Positions 1 through 8,089 of a stretch of DNA of 59,010 bases are shown piece by piece. Below the pieces are notes generated by a model. It ran no database searches, had not been told where the DNA came from, and saw nothing but the letters and a program-made list of their open reading frames with translations. Source of the stretch: Bacteroidales bacterium (GTDB lineage Bacteria; Bacteroidota; Bacteroidia; Bacteroidales; F082); NCBI GenBank assembly GCA_017537965.1, contig JAFYJV010000017.1:1-59010 (forward strand), in the 5' to 3' direction. Position numbers and translations under genes: made by a program. Every line of letters begins with the position of its first letter. The stretch's first letter is position 1.

Positions 1-257
1 CTTTGCTGGCTATGGGCATCTTCATCGGAGCGGTGTGGGCCAACGTTTCCTGGGGTAATTACTGGTCGTGGGACCCGAAAGAGGTCTGGGCACTCATCAC
101 GCTTCTTATTTACGCCGCACCGTTGCATGAAAAACTATGGAAAACCTTTGACAAACCTTTGTTTTTCCACATCTACAGCATTCTTGCCTTCCTAAGCGTA
201 GTCATCACTTATTTCGGTGTCAATCTCATCTTAGGCGGGGTTCATGCCTACAATTAA
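1..257 (+). CDS. CcsA/ResC-type cytochrome c biogenesis protein, C-terminal fragment
   Basis: Only the last 85 or so residues are in the window; the reading frame is open from the left edge, so the true start lies upstream. The fragment carries the tryptophan-rich heme-handling (WWD) motif WGNYWSWDPKEVWALIT, followed by membrane-spanning segments, as in CcsA/CcmF-family heme lyases that attach heme to apocytochromes c at the outer face of the inner membrane. In Bacteroidota this domain is often fused to ResB; whether that is so here cannot be seen. The stop overlaps the stop of the convergent gene by 4 bases. Confidence 0.88.
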   Translation, partial: LLAMGIFIGAVWANVSWGNYWSWDPKEVWALITLLIYAAPLHEKLWKTFDKPLFFHIYSILAFLSVVITYFGVNLILGGVHAYN

Positions 258-3200
258 TTCAGTACCAACTTTTGGATAAAACGTTTTCCGTCCCGGATGA
301 CTAAAACCGAATAAACACCGGAGGAACATTGGTTCAGATCGACAATGGTCTCATGTCCTTGAGAATAGCCTTGGGTAATCGTCTGGCCCATCATGTTGAT
401 GATAGCGTATTCAAATTCCCGGACATCGTCCATAGAAAGGTGCAACATCCCTTGACAAGGATTGGGATACACCTTAAAAGTCAGTCCCTTTTCTTCAACA
501 CCCACATATTCATTCAATATTACATGGACGATGAAATCGACCGTTTGTCCGTCGCTGGAGGCGCGAAGCGTGAGGTCGGCCAAAGCAGATTCTCCATTGA
601 GGCGGGTGACCGTCAGCGTTTTTTCCGTTATCGTGGCCGTTATTGCTGTTTCGTTGGAGTTGGTAATGAGGCTGTAAACGATGTTCTCGTCAGGATCGTC
701 AGGGTCAGAGGCTACGCCTTCAAGGTTGATTTCGACAGTTTGTGGAAAAACGTCCATGATGAAATCGGCAACGGGATTGGCAATGTATGGCGGTTCATCT
801 TGTGGCGGAATAGGAGGTGTAGGAGCTTCGCCGTTGAAATCGTCAATGCAGAAATAAGCGGGGGTGAGCATGCCCCAGTTGTTGTTTTTGGTGGACGACA
901 GGCTGAACGAGATAGTGGCCACGGGGCCGAGTGGGCTCAGGTCGAACCATTCCCAAGTGTCGAGAACATAGTCTTCGTCATTGTTGGCAAACCGATAGTC
1001 GGCCAAGTAGAAATCAAGTGTCCCCAAAGTCACGCCGTTGGCATTTTTGCCAGTAGCGGTGAGCTTGAACCAGTCAGGATCGTTGCCCGAGGCACCGCCG
1101 AAGGGCGTCACGGAATAGTCGCCCTCAAGGATGTTTTGATAGGCCCAAAGGTTGTTGGTGACATAGCATCCAGTGACGGTTTGCACCGATCCGTCGGCAG
1201 CGGTGATGTCGGTCTGCGCTCCCATGGTATAGGCCACGCCATATTGCGATGAGCCGTCATGACCCTGTCCTGGAGCAGCGGTGTATTGGGCATTCAGGCC
1301 TATCTGACTCAGGTCGGAGTGGTTGGAGGCCGTGAAGCCGCCCCAGAAATAGTCGGAGTAGTAGCTAGTGAAGTTCCATCCGCCGCTGGTCATCACAGCA
1401 TTGCCTTCCTGAGGGGGCATCCAGTAGCCGCTGGCATTCAAGGTGACATCCTCGAAACTGGCTACACCAAGGCCGATAACGACTTCTTCGCCCGACACGG
1501 AGACCTCCATATCGACTTGCTTTCCGTTGCTGGTGGCACGGATGACCAAAACCTGGTTGTTAAAGGCCTCCGAAGTAAGTCGGCTGACGGTAAGTTGACG
1601 ATTGTCGATGACAGCTGAGATTTCGGAAGGACAACTTTGCACCGAGATGACAATGAAATCATTGTTGTTGTCAGGGTCATCGAAGGTGTTGCTGAGATCG
1701 AAACCCAATGTTTGAGGATAGTCGGTAAAGTTGATGGGAGCCAATTGATTGGCTACGACGGGCGGCAGGTCTTCAGCAATGCATTCCACCGTAAAGGCAG
1801 TTTGCACAGACTGTCCGGCACTTTCCGCATTCAGCGTGATGGTGGCGTTTCCGCCGGTGCTCACCAGGCGTGTCACGGTCAGCATCCTGTTGTTCAGAGC
1901 GGTTGAGACCAGCGACGGATTGCTGTTGGATGCCACGGTGATGACTATGTTTTCATTCGGATCGTCAGGGTCGTTGAATGTGTTGGTCAAATCCACTGTT
2001 TGGCTTGCCGGGTAAGTGTTGAAAGTGATATTGGCAATGGGATTGGCAACCACCGGAGGAAGGTTGGTGCCGCTGGCAAACTCATCGGCTCCTGCACAAG
2101 GCGCTGTTGTTGAACGGTTTTGTCCGTCGATGTCCGTAGTGACGTAGGCCAATGGATTGGCAACCGTCAAACCATCGGCGCTGGTGATGTGCAGGTCATA
2201 GTTGCCCACAAAGTTTGGCGTGCACAGGGCCGAATGGGCATCAAATCCTGAAGCTGTAGTCCAGTCGCTCAACGTGGCACAATCGGTTCCTGCAAATTTT
2301 CCGATATTGCTTCCTGAATATTGAATTCTGTTGTAGTCGCAGATGCGGCTGTCAACGCTGTTGTTGAAACGGAACACATAGCCGTTGGTCTCGTTCACAA
2401 GCAAGTTGTTGTAGAAATTGAAGTTGGTGCCGTTTTTCTGCACGAAGATATTGATGTTTTCACCTGTACCGGTGCATTTCAGCGTGTTATGTGCAAAATC
2501 GATATAGTTGCAGTCGTTGTAATCGATGGCGAAGGCATAACTGCTGGAGTTGGCCTGTAGGTTGACGATGTTATTTCTGATGATGACATGATTGTCAGCG
2601 GTTCCCACCAAAGGACGAATTCTGAAAACCGTGGAATAGCTGGTAGTTCGAGTAATGTTCATCACGTTTTTCTCGATGACGGCGCCATTGTAGCACTGGA
2701 AAATGTCAATGGCGTTGTAATCGGTCTTGAAATCGTTGGAGTTGACGATGGTGTTGCCACGAAGCACGATGTTGTTGTAGAACGTGATGTAGATCGACTT
2801 GAACTGTTGGTTTTCAAAGGTGCAGTCTTCCACCAGCACATTCTCGTTGAAAAGCGTCATGTTCTTGCCTTGAAGGTAAAGTGCGATGCAGCCGTTCACA
2901 AACTGGCAACCTACAAACTGCACGTCGTGATCGACGATACCATCGCCGTTGTACATGTGGACAAGATTCTTGTCGTTATCGGAGCTGTTGGAAGGCACTT
3001 CCACGCCCACAAAACGCACATTTTCAAAACGGTTGTAGTCGCATTGGCCGTTGAATTTTAGCAGTTGTGCTTTGGCTGTTGAGGTCGTCGTGAACGTCAT
3101 GTTCTCGAAAGTAACATAATCGGCACCATCAAGTTTCACGGTGCTGTTGTCGGTATAACCGGCATTGCTAGTAACAACTACCTGTTGGTTGTCTGCACCC

Positions 3201-3460
3201 ATGCCTCTGAAGATGACACGGTTAGTGGCACTGGCACCGGTGATTTGGTTGATAGTGACGTACTCTTCGTAGGTTCCCGGGGCAATTTCAAAAACCACTT
3301 GACCCGAAATGCCAGCCCCCAAAGCTGAAGCTGCCGCGCTGAACGAAGTGTAGTTGGGATTTTGCGATGCGTTGCTGTTGATGGTGTAGGTGCCCGAAAG
3401 TTGGGCGTTGGCGAATGTCGCCATCAGGAGCGACAGACAAAGGAATAAATATTTTTTCAT
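254..3460 (-). CDS. T9SS-exported beta-helix protein with DUF4465 domain
   Basis: This 1068-residue protein begins with a signal peptide (MKKYLFLCLSLLMATFANAQ). Residues about 20-460 are N- and D-rich repeats of a right-handed parallel beta-helix. Three copies of a cadherin/Ig-like module follow (about 465-560, 565-655 and 885-985), each opening with a PPxxANxxA-like strand and containing a DPDD-type acidic turn. Between the second and third lies a DUF4465-type domain (about 669-875, with DPDWFKL, FYLADYRF, WGMLTPAYFCIDDF). The last 75 residues, from VYPNPCQG to a lysine-containing end, are a T9SS type A sorting domain, so the protein should reach the cell surface. It starts 6 bases after the MarC-like gene in the unit led by a cobalamin riboswitch. 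From memory, DUF4465 proteins occur in vitamin B12 capture loci of gut Bacteroides; a role in cobamide binding is inference. Confidence 0.85.
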   Translation of the reverse strand: MKKYLFLCLSLLMATFANAQLSGTYTINSNASQNPNYTSFSAAASALGAGISGQVVFEIAPGTYEEYVTINQITGASATNRVIFRGMGADNQQVVVTSNAGYTDNSTVKLDGADYVTFENMTFTTTSTAKAQLLKFNGQCDYNRFENVRFVGVEVPSNSSDNDKNLVHMYNGDGIVDHDVQFVGCQFVNGCIALYLQGKNMTLFNENVLVEDCTFENQQFKSIYITFYNNIVLRGNTIVNSNDFKTDYNAIDIFQCYNGAVIEKNVMNITRTTSYSTVFRIRPLVGTADNHVIIRNNIVNLQANSSSYAFAIDYNDCNYIDFAHNTLKCTGTGENINIFVQKNGTNFNFYNNLLVNETNGYVFRFNNSVDSRICDYNRIQYSGSNIGKFAGTDCATLSDWTTASGFDAHSALCTPNFVGNYDLHITSADGLTVANPLAYVTTDIDGQNRSTTAPCAGADEFASGTNLPPVVANPIANITFNTYPASQTVDLTNTFNDPDDPNENIVITVASNSNPSLVSTALNNRMLTVTRLVSTGGNATITLNAESAGQSVQTAFTVECIAEDLPPVVANQLAPINFTDYPQTLGFDLSNTFDDPDNNNDFIVISVQSCPSEISAVIDNRQLTVSRLTSEAFNNQVLVIRATSNGKQVDMEVSVSGEEVVIGLGVASFEDVTLNASGYWMPPQEGNAVMTSGGWNFTSYYSDYFWGGFTASNHSDLSQIGLNAQYTAAPGQGHDGSSQYGVAYTMGAQTDITAADGSVQTVTGCYVTNNLWAYQNILEGDYSVTPFGGASGNDPDWFKLTATGKNANGVTLGTLDFYLADYRFANNDEDYVLDTWEWFDLSPLGPVATISFSLSSTKNNNWGMLTPAYFCIDDFNGEAPTPPIPPQDEPPYIANPVADFIMDVFPQTVEINLEGVASDPDDPDENIVYSLITNSNETAITATITEKTLTVTRLNGESALADLTLRASSDGQTVDFIVHVILNEYVGVEEKGLTFKVYPNPCQGMLHLSMDDVREFEYAIINMMGQTITQGYSQGHETIVDLNQCSSGVYSVLVIRDGKRFIQKLVLN

Positions 3461-3466
3461 GGTTGA

Positions 3467-4069
3467 TTATTGTATTCTTGGAACTTGCGATATGATGACA
3501 GTGATATTATTGACAAACATATTCACGGCGATGGCCAACAGGATGACACCAAAAAACTTCCGGAGGATAAAGATCAGATTTTCACCCAGCAATTTCTGGA
3601 TTCGGCCGAGTTGGCTGATGACGATGTAGTCCAGCAGAATATTGAGCAACAATCCGATGAGGATGTTGACCACGGCATAGTCGGCACGAAGCGATAGCAA
3701 GGCAGTAAGCGCACCGGGACCGGCAATCAGCGGAAAAGCAATCGGCACGATGCTGGCACCGCTTTTGCCGCCTTCGTTTTTGATGATCTCGCGGCCGAGA
3801 ATCATCTCCACGGCAAGGATGAACAGCACAAAAGATCCGGCGACGGCAAACGACTCCTTATCGATGCCAAAGAGTTTCAGCAATGCGTTGCCGGCGAAGA
3901 AAAAGGCCAAAAACAGGCCCAAGGCCGTCAGGCAGGCTTGACCCGCCTTGATGGTCTTGTTCTGTTCCTTCATGCTCATGAAGATGGGGATCGACCCGAA
4001 AATGTCGATGATGGCGGCCATCACGATGAAAGAGCTGAAAATCTCTACGAAATTGATCTCATTAAACAT
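3467..4069 (-). CDS. MarC family integral membrane protein
   Basis: A 200-residue hydrophobic protein with about six membrane segments. It matches the MarC family (IDIFGSIPIF near the N-terminus, PLIAGPGALTALL in the middle). The ATG at 4069 was chosen over a longer frame because it gives the usual family length and has a GGAG element just upstream. That start lies inside the end of the CoA-transferase gene (8-base overlap), so the two are probably translationally coupled. The biochemical role of MarC proteins is unsettled; the old link to antibiotic resistance is not well supported. Its presence in a B12-controlled unit is unexplained. Confidence 0.85.
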   Translation of the reverse strand: MFNEINFVEIFSSFIVMAAIIDIFGSIPIFMSMKEQNKTIKAGQACLTALGLFLAFFFAGNALLKLFGIDKESFAVAGSFVLFILAVEMILGREIIKNEGGKSGASIVPIAFPLIAGPGALTALLSLRADYAVVNILIGLLLNILLDYIVISQLGRIQKLLGENLIFILRKFFGVILLAIAVNMFVNNITVIISQVPRIQ

Positions 4070-5375
4070 GGCTCCAGAGGTAATGATAATGTGAACCGAA
4101 ACGTTTGAAGGCGGCTTCATCGAGCATCTCTTGGAACTGCGGATGGGCTACCGAGATGATGAGTTTGGCGCGCTCTTGGAGCGAACGCCCATAAAGGTTG
4201 ACGGCACCGTATTCGGTAATGAACCAATGGATGTGGTTGCGGGTGGTGACAGCCCCCGAACCCAAGTCCAAGGTAGGTACAATCTTGTTGATGCCCTTGC
4301 GGGTGGTGGAAGGCATGGCGATGATGGCCTTGCCTCCTTTGGAACGTGAGGCTCCATAGACATAGTCAATCTGGCCACCCACACCGGAATAGATGCGCTC
4401 GCCCAAAGAGTCGGCGCAAACTTGACCCGAGAGGTCGATCTGTATGCCCGAGTTGATGGAGGTCATCTTGGGCTGCTGGGCGATGACGAAAGGATCGTTT
4501 GTGTATTCAACGTCCTTCAACAAGACCTCGTGATTGCCATCGATGAAGTCGTAGATTTTTTTCGAGCCCATCACAAAGGTGGAGACGATCTTTCCCTTAT
4601 CCAGTTTCTTGTTGTCGCCCGTGATGATGCCTTTCTTCACCAAGGGCAGGATGCCGTCAGAGAACATCTCTGTGTGGATGCCGATATCCTTATGGTTGTG
4701 CAGGCACGAAAGGATGGCGTTCGGGATGCTGCCGATTCCCATCTGGAGGCAGGCACCGTCTTCGATGAGCTCGGCACAATAACGTCCGATGGTCTTCTCC
4801 ACCTCTGTAGGTTCAGGCATATCGACGGTAAGCAAGGGTGCGTCATCCTCGACAAAAACATTGATCCGACTGATATGAACCAATGCATCGCCAAAGGTAC
4901 GAGGCACATGCTTGTTGACCACGGCAATGACGAACTCAGCACTCTCCATGGCCGCCAAGGTGGCATCCACCGAAGAGCCTAACGACACATAACCGAACTT
5001 GTCGGGCGGGCACACCTGAATCATTGCCACGTTACACTTGATGTAGCGCTCGCGATAGAGTTTCGAGGTCTCACCCAGGAAGACGGGGATGTAGTCGGCT
5101 AGACCTTTTTGCACACTTTCGCGCACGTTGGCACCCACGAAGAAGGCGTTGTGCTGGAAGATACCCTCAAATTCCGGATTGACGTAAGGAGCAGCACCCT
5201 CGGTGTGGAGGTGGTGGATATAGACGTTTTTCAATTCGCCGGCGCGACCGCGGTCGCAAAGGGCTTTCACTAAACATTGGGGCACATTGGAGACCGAGCT
5301 GATATGCACGTGGTCGCCCGACTTGATGACTTTGACGGCTTCCTCGGCCGTAACTGCTTGATACTGTTTCTTCAT
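4062..5375 (-). CDS. acetyl-CoA hydrolase/transferase family CoA-transferase
   Basis: A 437-residue member of the acetyl-CoA hydrolase/4-hydroxybutyrate CoA-transferase family. These enzymes move CoA between acyl groups such as acetate, propionate, butyrate, succinate or 4-hydroxybutyrate through a glutamyl-CoA intermediate. The likely catalytic glutamate lies in HTEMFSDG (around residue 237), with the glycine-rich GIGSIPNAIL just before it and GGQIDYVYGA in the C-terminal half. The substrate cannot be fixed from sequence. It is the first gene after a cobalamin riboswitch whose aptamer ends 44 bases before the ATG. This suggests a link to B12-dependent methylmalonyl-CoA/propionate metabolism or its bypass (inference). 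The MarC-like gene overlaps its 3' end. Confidence 0.9.
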   Translation of the reverse strand: MKKQYQAVTAEEAVKVIKSGDHVHISSVSNVPQCLVKALCDRGRAGELKNVYIHHLHTEGAAPYVNPEFEGIFQHNAFFVGANVRESVQKGLADYIPVFLGETSKLYRERYIKCNVAMIQVCPPDKFGYVSLGSSVDATLAAMESAEFVIAVVNKHVPRTFGDALVHISRINVFVEDDAPLLTVDMPEPTEVEKTIGRYCAELIEDGACLQMGIGSIPNAILSCLHNHKDIGIHTEMFSDGILPLVKKGIITGDNKKLDKGKIVSTFVMGSKKIYDFIDGNHEVLLKDVEYTNDPFVIAQQPKMTSINSGIQIDLSGQVCADSLGERIYSGVGGQIDYVYGASRSKGGKAIIAMPSTTRKGINKIVPTLDLGSGAVTTRNHIHWFITEYGAVNLYGRSLQERAKLIISVAHPQFQEMLDEAAFKRFGSHYHYLWSHV

Positions 5376-5419
5376 GTTTCACTAACTTTTGTTCCCGAAA
5401 GTTGTCAATCATTTGGAAA

Positions 5420-5572
5420 CGGGCAGGTCTTCTGGCTTGTCCCAGCCTGCGGCGTCTTCCCGATAACGAATATCAGTGACTTAGGTACCACAGGCCCTTG
5501 GGGGACTTACAGCTACGGGCATAGCTCCTGATTTACACAGGATTCCCTATTAATCTTCAATTGAAGAACCCG
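5420..5572 (-). promoter_or_regulatory. cobalamin riboswitch
   Basis: Read on the minus strand, the segment has the conserved pieces of the AdoCbl-class aptamer in order: a closing CGGG (5569-5572) pairing with CCCG (5420-5423); GGGAATCCTGTGTAAATCAG; CCCGTAGCTGTAA; the AGTCACTG block; CGGGAAG; and the B12 box AAGCCAGAAGACCTGCC near 5422-5438. A Bacteroidota promoter ends about 11 bases before it. The CoA-transferase ATG follows 44 bases after it, with a small AACTTT/AAAGTT hairpin between. No U-tract terminator is seen between aptamer and ATG, so control is probably at translation. Cobalamin normally lowers expression. Confidence 0.95.
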
Positions 5573-5582
5573 AATCCAGCGG

Positions 5583-5617
5583 CAAAAGTAGTGCTTTTTA
5601 TTTAATCAATGCACAAA
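5583..5617 (-). promoter_or_regulatory. promoter of the cobalamin riboswitch operon
   Basis: The -7 element TACTTTTG lies at 5583-5590 (minus strand) and matches TAnnTTTG exactly. A TTTG at 5614-5617, with a 23-base spacer, can serve as the -33 element; ATTG at 5607-5610 is an alternative. The predicted start falls a few bases before the riboswitch aptamer. The TTTG is part of the U-tract of the upstream gene's terminator. Confidence 0.7.
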
Positions 5618-5663: not shown

Positions 5664-6494
5664 TCAAAACGCGAACTCGTATCCTGCGCCGAACCAGCCT
5701 CTGAAGCCAGTTTCCTTGGTGTAGGACTTCAACTTGGTACCTTCGGCATTGGCGTCCACCACCTTGTCCATGAGATAATCGCCCAAGAAATAGAAATTCA
5801 AGGTGTTGCGCTTGTCTAATCGGATATCCACGCCGAATGAACCACGCAAGCGGTTGACATAGCCGCCGTTGAAGCCTGTCAGGAACCAGCCTGGTTCGCC
5901 TTCTTCGGAATAGTCGTCCAAGGTGACATAAACGCTGCCGTCGTAGGCTGCCTCAATAACGGGTGCGTTGAAGTAGTTGCGCACCTCGAAATAGGCGTAT
6001 GGCTGCACCTTGCCGAAGCCCTTGTATTGGGCTTTCAGGCGGCTCTTCAGCGTCAGCGCGTTTTGAGGATTCTGATACACATTGAAGTCACCTGTGCGAC
6101 GCGTCACTTGAAAACGTTCCTTCAAAGAAAGGTTCCAGTTGCCGAGATGCAGTGTACCTGTGACATCTGCCATCAACCTGTGTCGTGGGTTCTTGAACGA
6201 CTCCGAATTGGTCCCGTAGCCGTTGATAAGGGCATAACCCAATCCTAACTTGATGTACGGATGCACCTTGTAGCTGATTCCCAAGGTCGTTTGTAGGCGG
6301 TCCAGACTGCTGAAGTTGTTGTCGAAACGCACCTCTTCTTCCAGAGAGACATGCAGGCCTTTGGTAATCTTCTTATCCATCGAAACAGCCACACGCCCGC
6401 CAAACTCAGGATCGAGGGCGACATCCGTCTGCGAAAATGCCATCAAGGGCAAAACCAGCCCCAGCATCAATATAAAAACGTGTTTTCTTCTCAT
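5664..6494 (-). CDS. DUF2490 family outer-membrane beta-barrel protein
   Basis: A 276-residue protein with a signal peptide (MRRKHVFILMLGLVLPLMAFSQ). The rest is alternating hydrophobic/polar strands with aromatic ends and a terminal phenylalanine (GAGYEFAF), as in small outer-membrane barrels of the DUF2490 family. The ATG at 6494 was chosen because it begins the signal peptide; the frame is open further upstream but that part reads as shadow sequence of the neighbour. It follows the carbohydrate-binding lipoprotein gene by 20 bases, so the two are probably co-transcribed. DUF2490 proteins have no established function. Confidence 0.82.
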   Translation of the reverse strand: MRRKHVFILMLGLVLPLMAFSQTDVALDPEFGGRVAVSMDKKITKGLHVSLEEEVRFDNNFSSLDRLQTTLGISYKVHPYIKLGLGYALINGYGTNSESFKNPRHRLMADVTGTLHLGNWNLSLKERFQVTRRTGDFNVYQNPQNALTLKSRLKAQYKGFGKVQPYAYFEVRNYFNAPVIEAAYDGSVYVTLDDYSEEGEPGWFLTGFNGGYVNRLRGSFGVDIRLDKRNTLNFYFLGDYLMDKVVDANAEGTKLKSYTKETGFRGWFGAGYEFAF

Positions 6495-6514
6495 AACTTT
6501 TAACTTCTGACTTC

Positions 6515-8089
6515 TTAAAAAGGTCCATGTCCACCACCTCCAGGTCCTCCTCCACCGCCATTGCCGCCTGAATAGGACGAAAGGCTGACTGAGGAACCAC
6601 CACTGAACGAGGCATTGCAATAAAACATTCCCTCGAAACATTCCGTTCCGTTGGAGACGCTCACGCCCGATTGCAAGGAAGGTGTTGAACTGCCTGAAAC
6701 AACCAATGGCGTTCCGCCGCTCGAAGGGGTTTTGAAGGCGTAAGCCGTTGAGCCGATAGTCAAACCGAACCATGTGTTTTGCGACCATGAAGAGGCCGAA
6801 TAGCAGCTCTGTGTAAGCGAGGAACCACTTTCCAGTCCGCCGATAGCCACCAAGGTGCCGCCAGTGAGATAAAGCGTGTATCCGCCTTCGGAATTGGCGT
6901 CAACGGCCACTTCAGGGGAGCTAGCGCCGATGGCATACACCACACCGCCTTTGATGTAGCAGTTGCCATTGGCATCGAGGCCGTCGTTCCCCTGGCTGTA
7001 GGCGCAGACCAACCCGCCCGAAATGGTGAGGTTGCCGCCTGAGTTGATAGCATCGTCCGACTGGGAATGGCTATACACCTCGCCACTTGAAACCGAAAGG
7101 GTGCCCTTGGATTCGATACCCTCGTGGGCGGTGCAGTTCACCACCACATTGCTGCCTTTGAAGATCAGGTTCCCGTCGAATTTAAGGCCTTTGGCCGAGA
7201 TACCGTTGGAGCTGCTGCCACCCCCTGGAAAGCCGCCTCCAGGGAAACCTCCGCCACCGCCGCTGGAGCCGAAATTACTCCCTGTGACGTTAACAATGAC
7301 AGTGCCACCATAGAAGTAGCCGTTGCCGTCGCTGCTGATGCCCTTGCCGCCCGTTCCTGTGCTGGTGAGGCTCAATGAGCCATCGGTCATCTTCACATAG
7401 TCTTTTCCTCTGACGCAAGCAGGTTTAAGGGTGTCGCTTCCTCTGACTGAGGCAGCAGTTGTCATCTTCACGGTGATGTCGCCCCCGAGGAAATGCACAT
7501 AGTCGTCGGAAACGATGCCCGACTTGCCCGTTGCCGTTACGGTGAGGCTGCCCGTACCGCTGAAAATGAACTGGCCTTCGCCGAACAACGCAGCTTTTTC
7601 GTCCTCCTCGTCAGGTGTATCCGTATAAGAAGTGCCGTCAGCAAGGTTGTTGTCGCCTTTCAAAACGATGAAAGTGCGTTTGCCCTTGCTCGGCTCCGAC
7701 TGCGGACCTTGCACGTTGATGGCCGCACCGTTGGGGTTGGTGATGTTCACATCATTGAACGTGATGCCTTGTTTCTTCGCGCTATAGAGCTTGAAAAAGC
7801 CATCGTTGGCGGTCCCTGAAAGCTCATACATCACATATTCTTCTCCGTTGTAAACGATGGTCACATTATTGCTGCTGACGGTCACCGAGAAGTCTTCATT
7901 ATCTCCAGTGACTGTGGCGTTTCCATCCGTTGAAAATGCCACGCTGACCGTTTGCGAAAAGGAAGTGTTGGCGATGAGGTCTTCGTTGTCGTCGGTCTCA
8001 ATCGGGTCAATGAGGATGATGTTGTCCTTGGCGCAACCCAACAGCAACGATAGCGAGACGATTAACCAACAATTCAAAAGTCGTTTCAT
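6515..8089 (-). CDS. carbohydrate-binding beta-helix lipoprotein (Cthe_2159/DUF4353 type)
   Basis: A 524-residue lipoprotein with lipobox LLLGC (Cys19). After an N-terminal strand region comes a series of turns of the form GIxSDGxxxxxGGxxxV (about residues 190-440), typical of the Cthe_2159 parallel beta-helix, a calcium- and pectin-binding fold. Two glycine-rich low-complexity stretches stand out: one interrupts the helix at about 275-293 (GFPGGGFPGGG), the other ends the protein. The fold suggests polysaccharide binding or surface architecture at the outer membrane. It is the first gene of a pair with the DUF2490 protein. Confidence 0.85.
   Translation of the reverse strand: MKRLLNCWLIVSLSLLLGCAKDNIILIDPIETDDNEDLIANTSFSQTVSVAFSTDGNATVTGDNEDFSVTVSSNNVTIVYNGEEYVMYELSGTANDGFFKLYSAKKQGITFNDVNITNPNGAAINVQGPQSEPSKGKRTFIVLKGDNNLADGTSYTDTPDEEDEKAALFGEGQFIFSGTGSLTVTATGKSGIVSDDYVHFLGGDITVKMTTAASVRGSDTLKPACVRGKDYVKMTDGSLSLTSTGTGGKGISSDGNGYFYGGTVIVNVTGSNFGSSGGGGGFPGGGFPGGGSSSNGISAKGLKFDGNLIFKGSNVVVNCTAHEGIESKGTLSVSSGEVYSHSQSDDAINSGGNLTISGGLVCAYSQGNDGLDANGNCYIKGGVVYAIGASSPEVAVDANSEGGYTLYLTGGTLVAIGGLESGSSLTQSCYSASSWSQNTWFGLTIGSTAYAFKTPSSGGTPLVVSGSSTPSLQSGVSVSNGTECFEGMFYCNASFSGGSSVSLSSYSGGNGGGGGPGGGGHGPF

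Follow-up and report, generated by a model that had tools for sequence, protein, structure and literature searches.

In Bacteroides thetaiotaomicron, the lipoproteins BtuJ1 and BtuJ2 (BT_1491 and BT_1957) capture vitamin B12 by means of a DUF4465 (IPR027828) domain and are encoded in uptake loci that carry cobalamin riboswitches (PMC12751083, PMC10404256, PMC13398666). Eight members of the DUF4465 family bind B12 (PMC13398666), and BtuJ1 (9FCT), BtuJ2 (9I2L) and the protein D5EK51 (9HMU) have been solved together with it (PMC13398666, PMC12751083). Among described switches, those of E. coli btuB and env8HyCbl act through a kissing loop, in which the L5 loop (consensus UCCCG) pairs with L13 and the stabilized P13 hairpin shuts off translation; corrinoid riboswitches that activate exist as well (PMC10653944). 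Here we analyze a stretch of 59,010 nucleotides (the window) at the start of contig JAFYJV010000017.1 (C16) of assembly GCA_017537965.1, the 2.32-Mb, 93.8% complete draft genome (G000) of a Bacteroidales bacterium. Within it, a cobalamin riboswitch heads the genes for a coenzyme A (CoA) transferase, a MarC-family membrane protein and a DUF4465 protein that ends in a sorting domain of the type IX secretion system (T9SS).

The riboswitch-led unit

The unit lies on the minus strand and comprises, in the direction of transcription:

5583..5590, minus strand: putative -7 promoter box TACTTTTG (TAnnTTTG type), read from the sequence
5405..5588, minus strand: cobalamin riboswitch aptamer RF00174 (Rfam match to the complete model), with CCCG in the L5 loop
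5384..5403, minus strand: P13 hairpin with L13 loop UCGGGA, the expression platform, 8 bases before the start codon
4062..5375, minus strand: CoA-transferase of the acetyl-CoA hydrolase/transferase (Cat, 4-hydroxybutyrate CoA-transferase) family (PF02550, PF13336)
3467..4120, minus strand: MarC (NAAT) family integral membrane protein (PF01914); longest open reading frame, start probably at 4069
254..3460, minus strand: T9SS-sorted protein of 1068 amino acids with an N-terminal sub-threshold beta-helix match (PF13229), DUF4465 and a sorting domain (PF14717, PF18962, TIGR04183)
836..1357, minus strand: DUF4465 domain (BtuJ-type) of that protein, residues 702-875 (Pfam E 3.8e-51)
260..472, minus strand: T9SS C-terminal sorting domain of that protein, residues 997-1067 (PF18962, TIGR04183)

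An earlier note on this DNA had described a complete cobalamin aptamer followed by three minus-strand genes joined by an 8-base overlap and a 6-base gap, and both descriptions hold. The Rfam match to RF00174 at 5405-5588 runs from end to end (model positions 1-189 of 189; 106.8 bits against a cut-off of 31.5; E 8.6e-26), and the CoA-transferase and MarC genes overlap by 8 bases if MarC starts at the inner ATG at 4069, with 6 bases separating MarC from the gene for the 1068-amino-acid protein. The TAnnTTTG at 5583-5590, a putative -7 box of the Bacteroidetes type, shares bases with the unpaired beginning of the Rfam match; in the 14 leaders chosen for alignment, neither its TA nor its TTTG varies.

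Computation also identifies the expression platform. When the switches from relatives' loci, the window and loci of a second type (that of contig C30, described below) were pooled, related sequences and a few weak matches included, a hairpin whose loop reads CGGG followed by A or G was present in 110 of 114, and CCCG, by a loose pattern, occupied a conserved upstream loop in 113 of the 114. The four that lack the hairpin are two switches in locus L058 and a single one each in L118 and L054. Across 20 distinct hairpins, 90% of the cells of the P13 stem are paired and 14 cells are changed on both sides; none of 500 shuffles reached the observed paired fraction, number of both-side changes or covariation score, and slid controls fell off, while the further pair types in the stem (7) did not exceed the shuffles in this same set. 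The count is confined to the 20 hairpins with 10-base loops, leaving out nine with 9-base loops, because MAFFT put gaps in the wrong places when loops of both lengths were aligned together. A longer hairpin at the B12 box was considered as L5 and dropped, since its loops vary, and the CCCG loop was taken as L5 instead. The complementarity of the two loops suggests kissing pairing between CCCG of L5 and CGGGA of L13, and a covarying P13 hairpin with a CGGGA loop fits a platform of this kind. The loops, the placement of P13 before the ATG and the known kissing-loop mechanism together make a repressing, translational switch likeliest. In aptamer, L5, L13 and a P13 that adjoins the start codon, the element thus resembles the btuB and env8HyCbl switches, from which it differs in heading a CoA-transferase-MarC-DUF4465 unit.

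The first gene product can be placed only as a CoA-transferase of the Cat family. Pfam matches AcetylCoA_hydro at E 7.7e-25 and AcetylCoA_hyd_C at 2.5e-58, and homology extends over nearly the whole length of the solved 4-hydroxybutyrate and butyryl-CoA:acetate CoA-transferases 2oas, 3eh7 and 3gk7 (E 2.8e-114 to 1.1e-128, 2oas being the best chain). Unlike a member of a named equivalog, however, it scores far under the NCBIfam cut-offs (318.8 against 674.8 bits for TIGR03948), and the succinate CoA-transferase models fit poorly. Searching the genome with this CoA-transferase as query returned no second Cat-family enzyme. The MarC protein likewise belongs to its family by PF01914 (106.8 bits against a cut-off of 23.9; E 1.3e-30) and differs in falling below the cut-off of TIGR00427 (85.9 against 99.2).

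The earlier note knew of no described example of this combination, and none was found in the open-licence papers searched, which also yielded no report of a Cat-family CoA-transferase under cobalamin-riboswitch control, no report of a MarC-family gene under any riboswitch, and no paper joining DUF4465 with the T9SS or with a CoA-transferase.

Gene order in relatives

The nearest relatives of the CoA-transferase are encoded in metagenome-assembled genomes of Bacteroidales, many from rumen, abomasum and other ruminant gut samples. Loci were compared for the best 80 of 110 relatives, 70 of them at at least 86% identity and 10 at no more than 75%, by walking upstream through same-strand genes separated by at most 250 bases to a switch at most 700 bases away. 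To call riboswitches in these loci, nhmmer was run with seeds taken from the loci themselves; in seven loci checked against Rfam, all 10 such calls were confirmed in five, and L108 and L110 held none. For the 70 close loci, the walk returned 64 riboswitch-led, four cut by contig ends and two without a switch (L059 and L115). The latter two were reassigned: in L115 a switch ends 41 bases upstream, the walk having been halted by an antisense reading-frame call, and in L059 just 525 bases precede the gene, so that it counts as cut.

With these assignments, the CoA-transferase is riboswitch-led in 65 of 65 judgeable close loci, the remaining five being cut, and in none of the 10 remoter ones; in one of these, L116, a switch adjoins the gene on the other strand and leads away from it. 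Of the 70 close loci, 66 have MarC behind the CoA-transferase in the same orientation (L070 and L115 are cut there; L088 and L096 have no MarC in that place). Because switch, CoA-transferase and MarC are kept together in relatives, their arrangement in the window is not due to chance: the riboswitch-led unit is conserved, and it is a new combination of known parts.

The position of the DUF4465 gene varies. Conservation of gene order was one of the points on which the earlier note had staked its reading beforehand, and the order is conserved in part: that of the window recurs in six relatives (L041, L057, L062, L065, L076 and L099; MarC consists of two short matching pieces in L057, and a small extra gene precedes it in L099), and 17 relatives have the order switch, DUF4465, CoA-transferase, MarC, with the 5' side of L090 cut and no MarC behind the transferase in L088. 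A quick tree built from the CoA-transferase gene, with long outgroup branches, places these 17 relatives in a single block and one basal row and shows the window order scattered, a pattern that fits an old shared unit that may later have been split and reshuffled. Altogether, 45 DUF4465 genes were counted in 44 loci, one of them (L078) matching over just 42 residues of the domain: 30 have a switch of their own, six share one, seven are cut and two have none, so that 36 of the 38 judgeable genes are riboswitch-led.

T9SS proteins of two further clusters (5 and 16) precede the CoA-transferase in seven loci, two of them cut (L067 and L072). Cluster 5 (L042, L044, L050, L053, L054, L060 and others) consists of large proteins of the T9SS type, about 1300-1900 amino acids when whole and often riboswitch-led; the one in L044 is rich in fn3 domains and has a weak sorting tail and no recognized B12 domain. 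In most of L095-L107, a hydrophobic protein of about 97 amino acids (cluster 11) is encoded between the CoA-transferase and MarC, and in L058 after MarC; it has no Pfam match in L095, the one scanned. Two divergent, back-to-back cobalamin riboswitches less than 100 bases apart occur at L049 8840-9265 and also in L058, L060, L069 and L079.

The DUF4465 protein

The third gene of the unit encodes the DUF4465 domain that the earlier note had recognized (residues 702-875, with the Pfam match listed above). The note was right to see in it a cobamide-binding family: the domain is homologous to BtuJ1 (9fct) and D5EK51 (9hmu), both solved with B12, with E values near 5e-26 for 9qpm and 9fct when the single protein is used and of 2.8e-44 for 9hmu with a profile of 51 DUF4465 rows, which matched six distinct solved sequences. 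Its label of BtuH type has to be replaced, since DUF4465 is the domain of BtuJ, and BtuH carries another (PMC13398666, PMC8941943, PMC12751083). BtuH2 of B. thetaiotaomicron, the B12-binding protein of a cobamide transport locus, resembles the window protein in a B12-binding role, predicted here, combined with extra N-terminal domains; it differs in that its B12-binding C-terminal domain is not DUF4465 and has no known structural homologues (PMC8941943). Eight sequences in the PDB matched the window protein up to E 0.1 and none is named BtuH, with the proviso that BtuH2 could stand there under another name. We therefore assign the domain to the BtuJ family of B12 binders and predict, by homology, that it binds a cobamide.

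Whereas BtuJ1 and BtuJ2 are lipoproteins in uptake loci, the window domain is part of a 1068-amino-acid protein with a T9SS tail, encoded beside a CoA-transferase and MarC. The sorting tail reported by the earlier note is borne out by Por_Secre_tail (6.5e-10, residues 997-1066) and TIGR04183 (33.6 against 23 bits), and the T9SS core protein SprA is encoded in the genome (SprA_N, 550.8 bits); the protein thus classes as type A cargo of the T9SS, and a location at the cell surface is predicted. What does not stand is the novelty of carrying DUF4465 on such a protein, which we dropped, because Por_Secre_tail was found in 23 of 27 order-level DUF4465 loci scanned. These were newly fetched from among the best-scoring DUF4465 matches in 120 of 295 genomes, so that the fraction is not unbiased; one (L147) belongs to the same genus as the window, and in two (L127 and L129) the sequence stops short of the 3' end. 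T9SS sorting of DUF4465 proteins thus appears widespread in the order, and the available text of PMC13398666 makes no mention of T9SS, type IX or sorting. A Pfam scan of six genes of the window revealed no BtuB or other TonB receptor and no BtuCD; no genome-wide search for BtuB or BtuCD was made.

A second locus in the same genome may supply related functions. The window's first 15,470 bases recur at 99.85% identity, free of gaps to the end of the fetched stretch, at 11000-26469 of contig C2, so that C2 and C16 are probably one locus seen twice, C2 being a strain variant or a redundant contig in the bin; with C2 treated as redundant, the genome holds two distinct riboswitches above the search threshold, not three. 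The second, on C30 (G000 C30:50648-55719; L005 10649-15719), leads a T9SS protein with a match to DUF4430 (E 5.1e-6, above the cut-off), a domain that transcobalamins carry in their C-terminal part (PMC4350170). A profile of this protein retrieved no transcobalamin from the PDB up to E 1, its matches being at the T9SS-tail end together with one weak other. A switch stands upstream in all 20 fetched loci of the protein, including that of this genome, and the locus continues with a second T9SS protein, a DUF5074 protein (PF16819) and a Peripla_BP_2 protein; the DUF5074 beta-propeller domain is listed beside DUF4465 genes (PMC13398666).

A proposed role in cobamide shortage and in the methylmalonyl-CoA branch

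The reading that we tentatively prefer is that of a cobamide-shortage unit, in which scavenging is regulated together with relief of a stalled methylmalonyl-CoA branch. With enough cobamide, L5 would kiss L13, P13 would be steadied before the start codon and the mRNA would be off; when cobamide runs short, the CoA-transferase, MarC and the T9SS-exported DUF4465 protein would be made together. The DUF4465 protein would then catch cobamides at the surface for transport machinery encoded elsewhere, for example in the C30 locus, and the CoA-transferase and MarC would serve the branch that stalls without cobamide. Of the two cobamide-dependent enzymes searched for, methylmalonyl-CoA mutase (MCM) is encoded in the genome, so that cobamide shortage should back up succinyl-CoA; the activation domain of methionine synthase (MetH), PF02965, was not found, and a MetH lacking it would escape this search. 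The transferase could free the trapped CoA by converting succinyl-CoA and acetate to succinate and acetyl-CoA, or in some similar way, and the product would leave through membrane proteins. A candidate beside MarC is a permease of the AAEx family (PF06826 in the one scanned), to which the succinate exporter SucE belongs (PMC12014714); it is found in the same gene run in 14 of the 70 close relatives, two with the 5' side cut.

The scavenging half of this reading has homology and the shared switch in its favor. For the metabolic half, the co-conservation is solid, the chemistry is not, and the metabolic link is unproven, as is the role of a metabolic bypass that the earlier note had given to the unit. 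We regard as rather unlikely a bolder version, in which a single cobamide-OFF switch of rumen-type Bacteroidales couples scavenging to a change from propionate to succinate fermentation, the transferase and MarC relieving the succinyl-CoA that stalls ahead of MCM; the A-ring pocket, re-shaped by Trp and Ile/Leu/Val, is perhaps tuned to another cobamide, and MarC exports a fermentation product or an amino acid. If the model of a shortage unit holds, RNA would tie the products of fermentation directly to the supply of the vitamin, the MarC family, so far poorly understood, would gain a physiological context, and a surface B12 catcher with a changed pocket would be carried by the T9SS. In the rumen bacterium Xylanibacter ruminicola, propionate formation depends on B12, and none of four predicted cobalamin riboswitches lies near propionate-pathway genes in the available account (PMC11575231); unlike these, the switch described here heads a CoA-transferase unit, in a Bacteroidales clade known mostly from ruminant samples.

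Several observations weigh against the shortage unit as we propose it. The sign of control is not certain, because activating corrinoid switches exist, and the transferase substrate and MarC cargo are candidates only. MCM and MetH were the sole cobamide enzymes searched, and a MetH without PF02965 is possible. The AAEx homologue of this genome (70% identity) lies on C22, another contig than the three riboswitch matches. Among the 70 close loci, 26 show no DUF4465 gene in the stretch covered (36 when all 80 are counted), some of these stretches being short, which makes the link of DUF4465 to the unit a loose one, and two DUF4465 genes (L044 and L066) have no switch with their 5' side covered. 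Lastly, of the four residues that bond cobalamin in both BtuJ1 and BtuJ2 (PMC12751083), two are changed in the window domain, Asn241 to Leu865 and Tyr146 to Trp772 (the Tyr146 position was mapped by counting in the alignment of the PDB match). The change is clade-wide: all 24 clade rows have Ile, Leu or Val at the place of Asn241 and Trp at that of Tyr146, and among 27 outside rows Asn is kept in 25 and Tyr in 20, with Trp at the Tyr146 place in three. Binding may therefore be weaker or of another cobamide.

These pocket changes, together with the long multi-domain architecture, would also agree with a DUF4465 domain that has lost B12 binding in this clade and now belongs to an adhesin or a structural surface protein. 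We consider this improbable, however, since the TPAY motif of the HI loop is kept (Thr242 as Thr866, Tyr245 as Tyr869), with the Tyr245 equivalent present in 51 of 51 aligned domains and that of Thr242 in 24 of 24 clade rows; the Trp at the Tyr146 place recurs in the alignment of the solved homologue 4jqr, as in the three outside rows, and the judgeable DUF4465 genes are with two exceptions riboswitch-led. More serious is the suggestion that the loci merely cluster a regulon, three cobamide-repressed genes of which the transferase and MarC do a job unrelated to the stalled branch, for example with amino acids or another acyl-CoA, and which are neighbors for no other reason than the switch they share. 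The free movement of the DUF4465 gene, far oftener with its own switch than with a shared one, speaks for such clustering, as do the riboswitch-led, fn3-rich T9SS proteins without a known B12 link in these loci and the cases of L108 and L109, where transferase and MarC are paired with no switch (checked against Rfam in L108); it is nevertheless somewhat doubtful, given that transferase and MarC stand behind a switch in every judgeable close relative (L088 and L096 lack the MarC gene there) and that MCM was found and the tested MetH domain was not.

The two remaining alternatives concern the reaction of the transferase. If the switch were activating, cobamide would turn on the enzyme to serve the propionate pathway as its succinate:propionate CoA-transferase; the classical propionate scheme has such a CoA-transfer step (PMC11575231), activating corrinoid switches are known (PMC10653944), and the enzyme is the sole Cat-family member that this query found in the genome. 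A scavenging protein in the unit fits shortage and not plenty, however, P13 lies immediately ahead of the start codon, where repressing translational switches have it, cobalamin and pseudocobalamin repressed the reporters of related B. thetaiotaomicron uptake loci (PMC12751083), and the NCBIfam succinate CoA-transferase models fit poorly, all of which makes activation very improbable. Hardly plausible is a B12-independent bypass to butyrate, in which a true 4-hydroxybutyrate CoA-transferase would open a route from succinate to butyrate when propionate formation is blocked: the closest solved relatives are named 4-hydroxybutyrate CoA-transferases, but the equivalog scores fall far short and HpaB_N, the domain sought for the 4-hydroxybutyryl-CoA dehydratase of this route, has no match in the 93.8% complete genome, so that we set it aside as the principal explanation. 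With the genome incomplete and few enzymes searched, such absences are not final.

The unit is flanked by genes of other kinds. A reading frame on the plus strand (window 3-257), which converges on the end of the DUF4465 gene, resembles, by a motif, the last part of a cytochrome c assembly protein. PF01578 genes, together with genes for imelysin and a di-haem oxidoreductase, also neighbor the unit in several relatives. Upstream, window 5664-8089 encodes a DUF2490 protein together with one of the Cthe_2159 type that ends in a Gly-rich stretch; the listed reading frames of the two overlap at 6515-6788, so that the DUF2490 protein probably starts further in.

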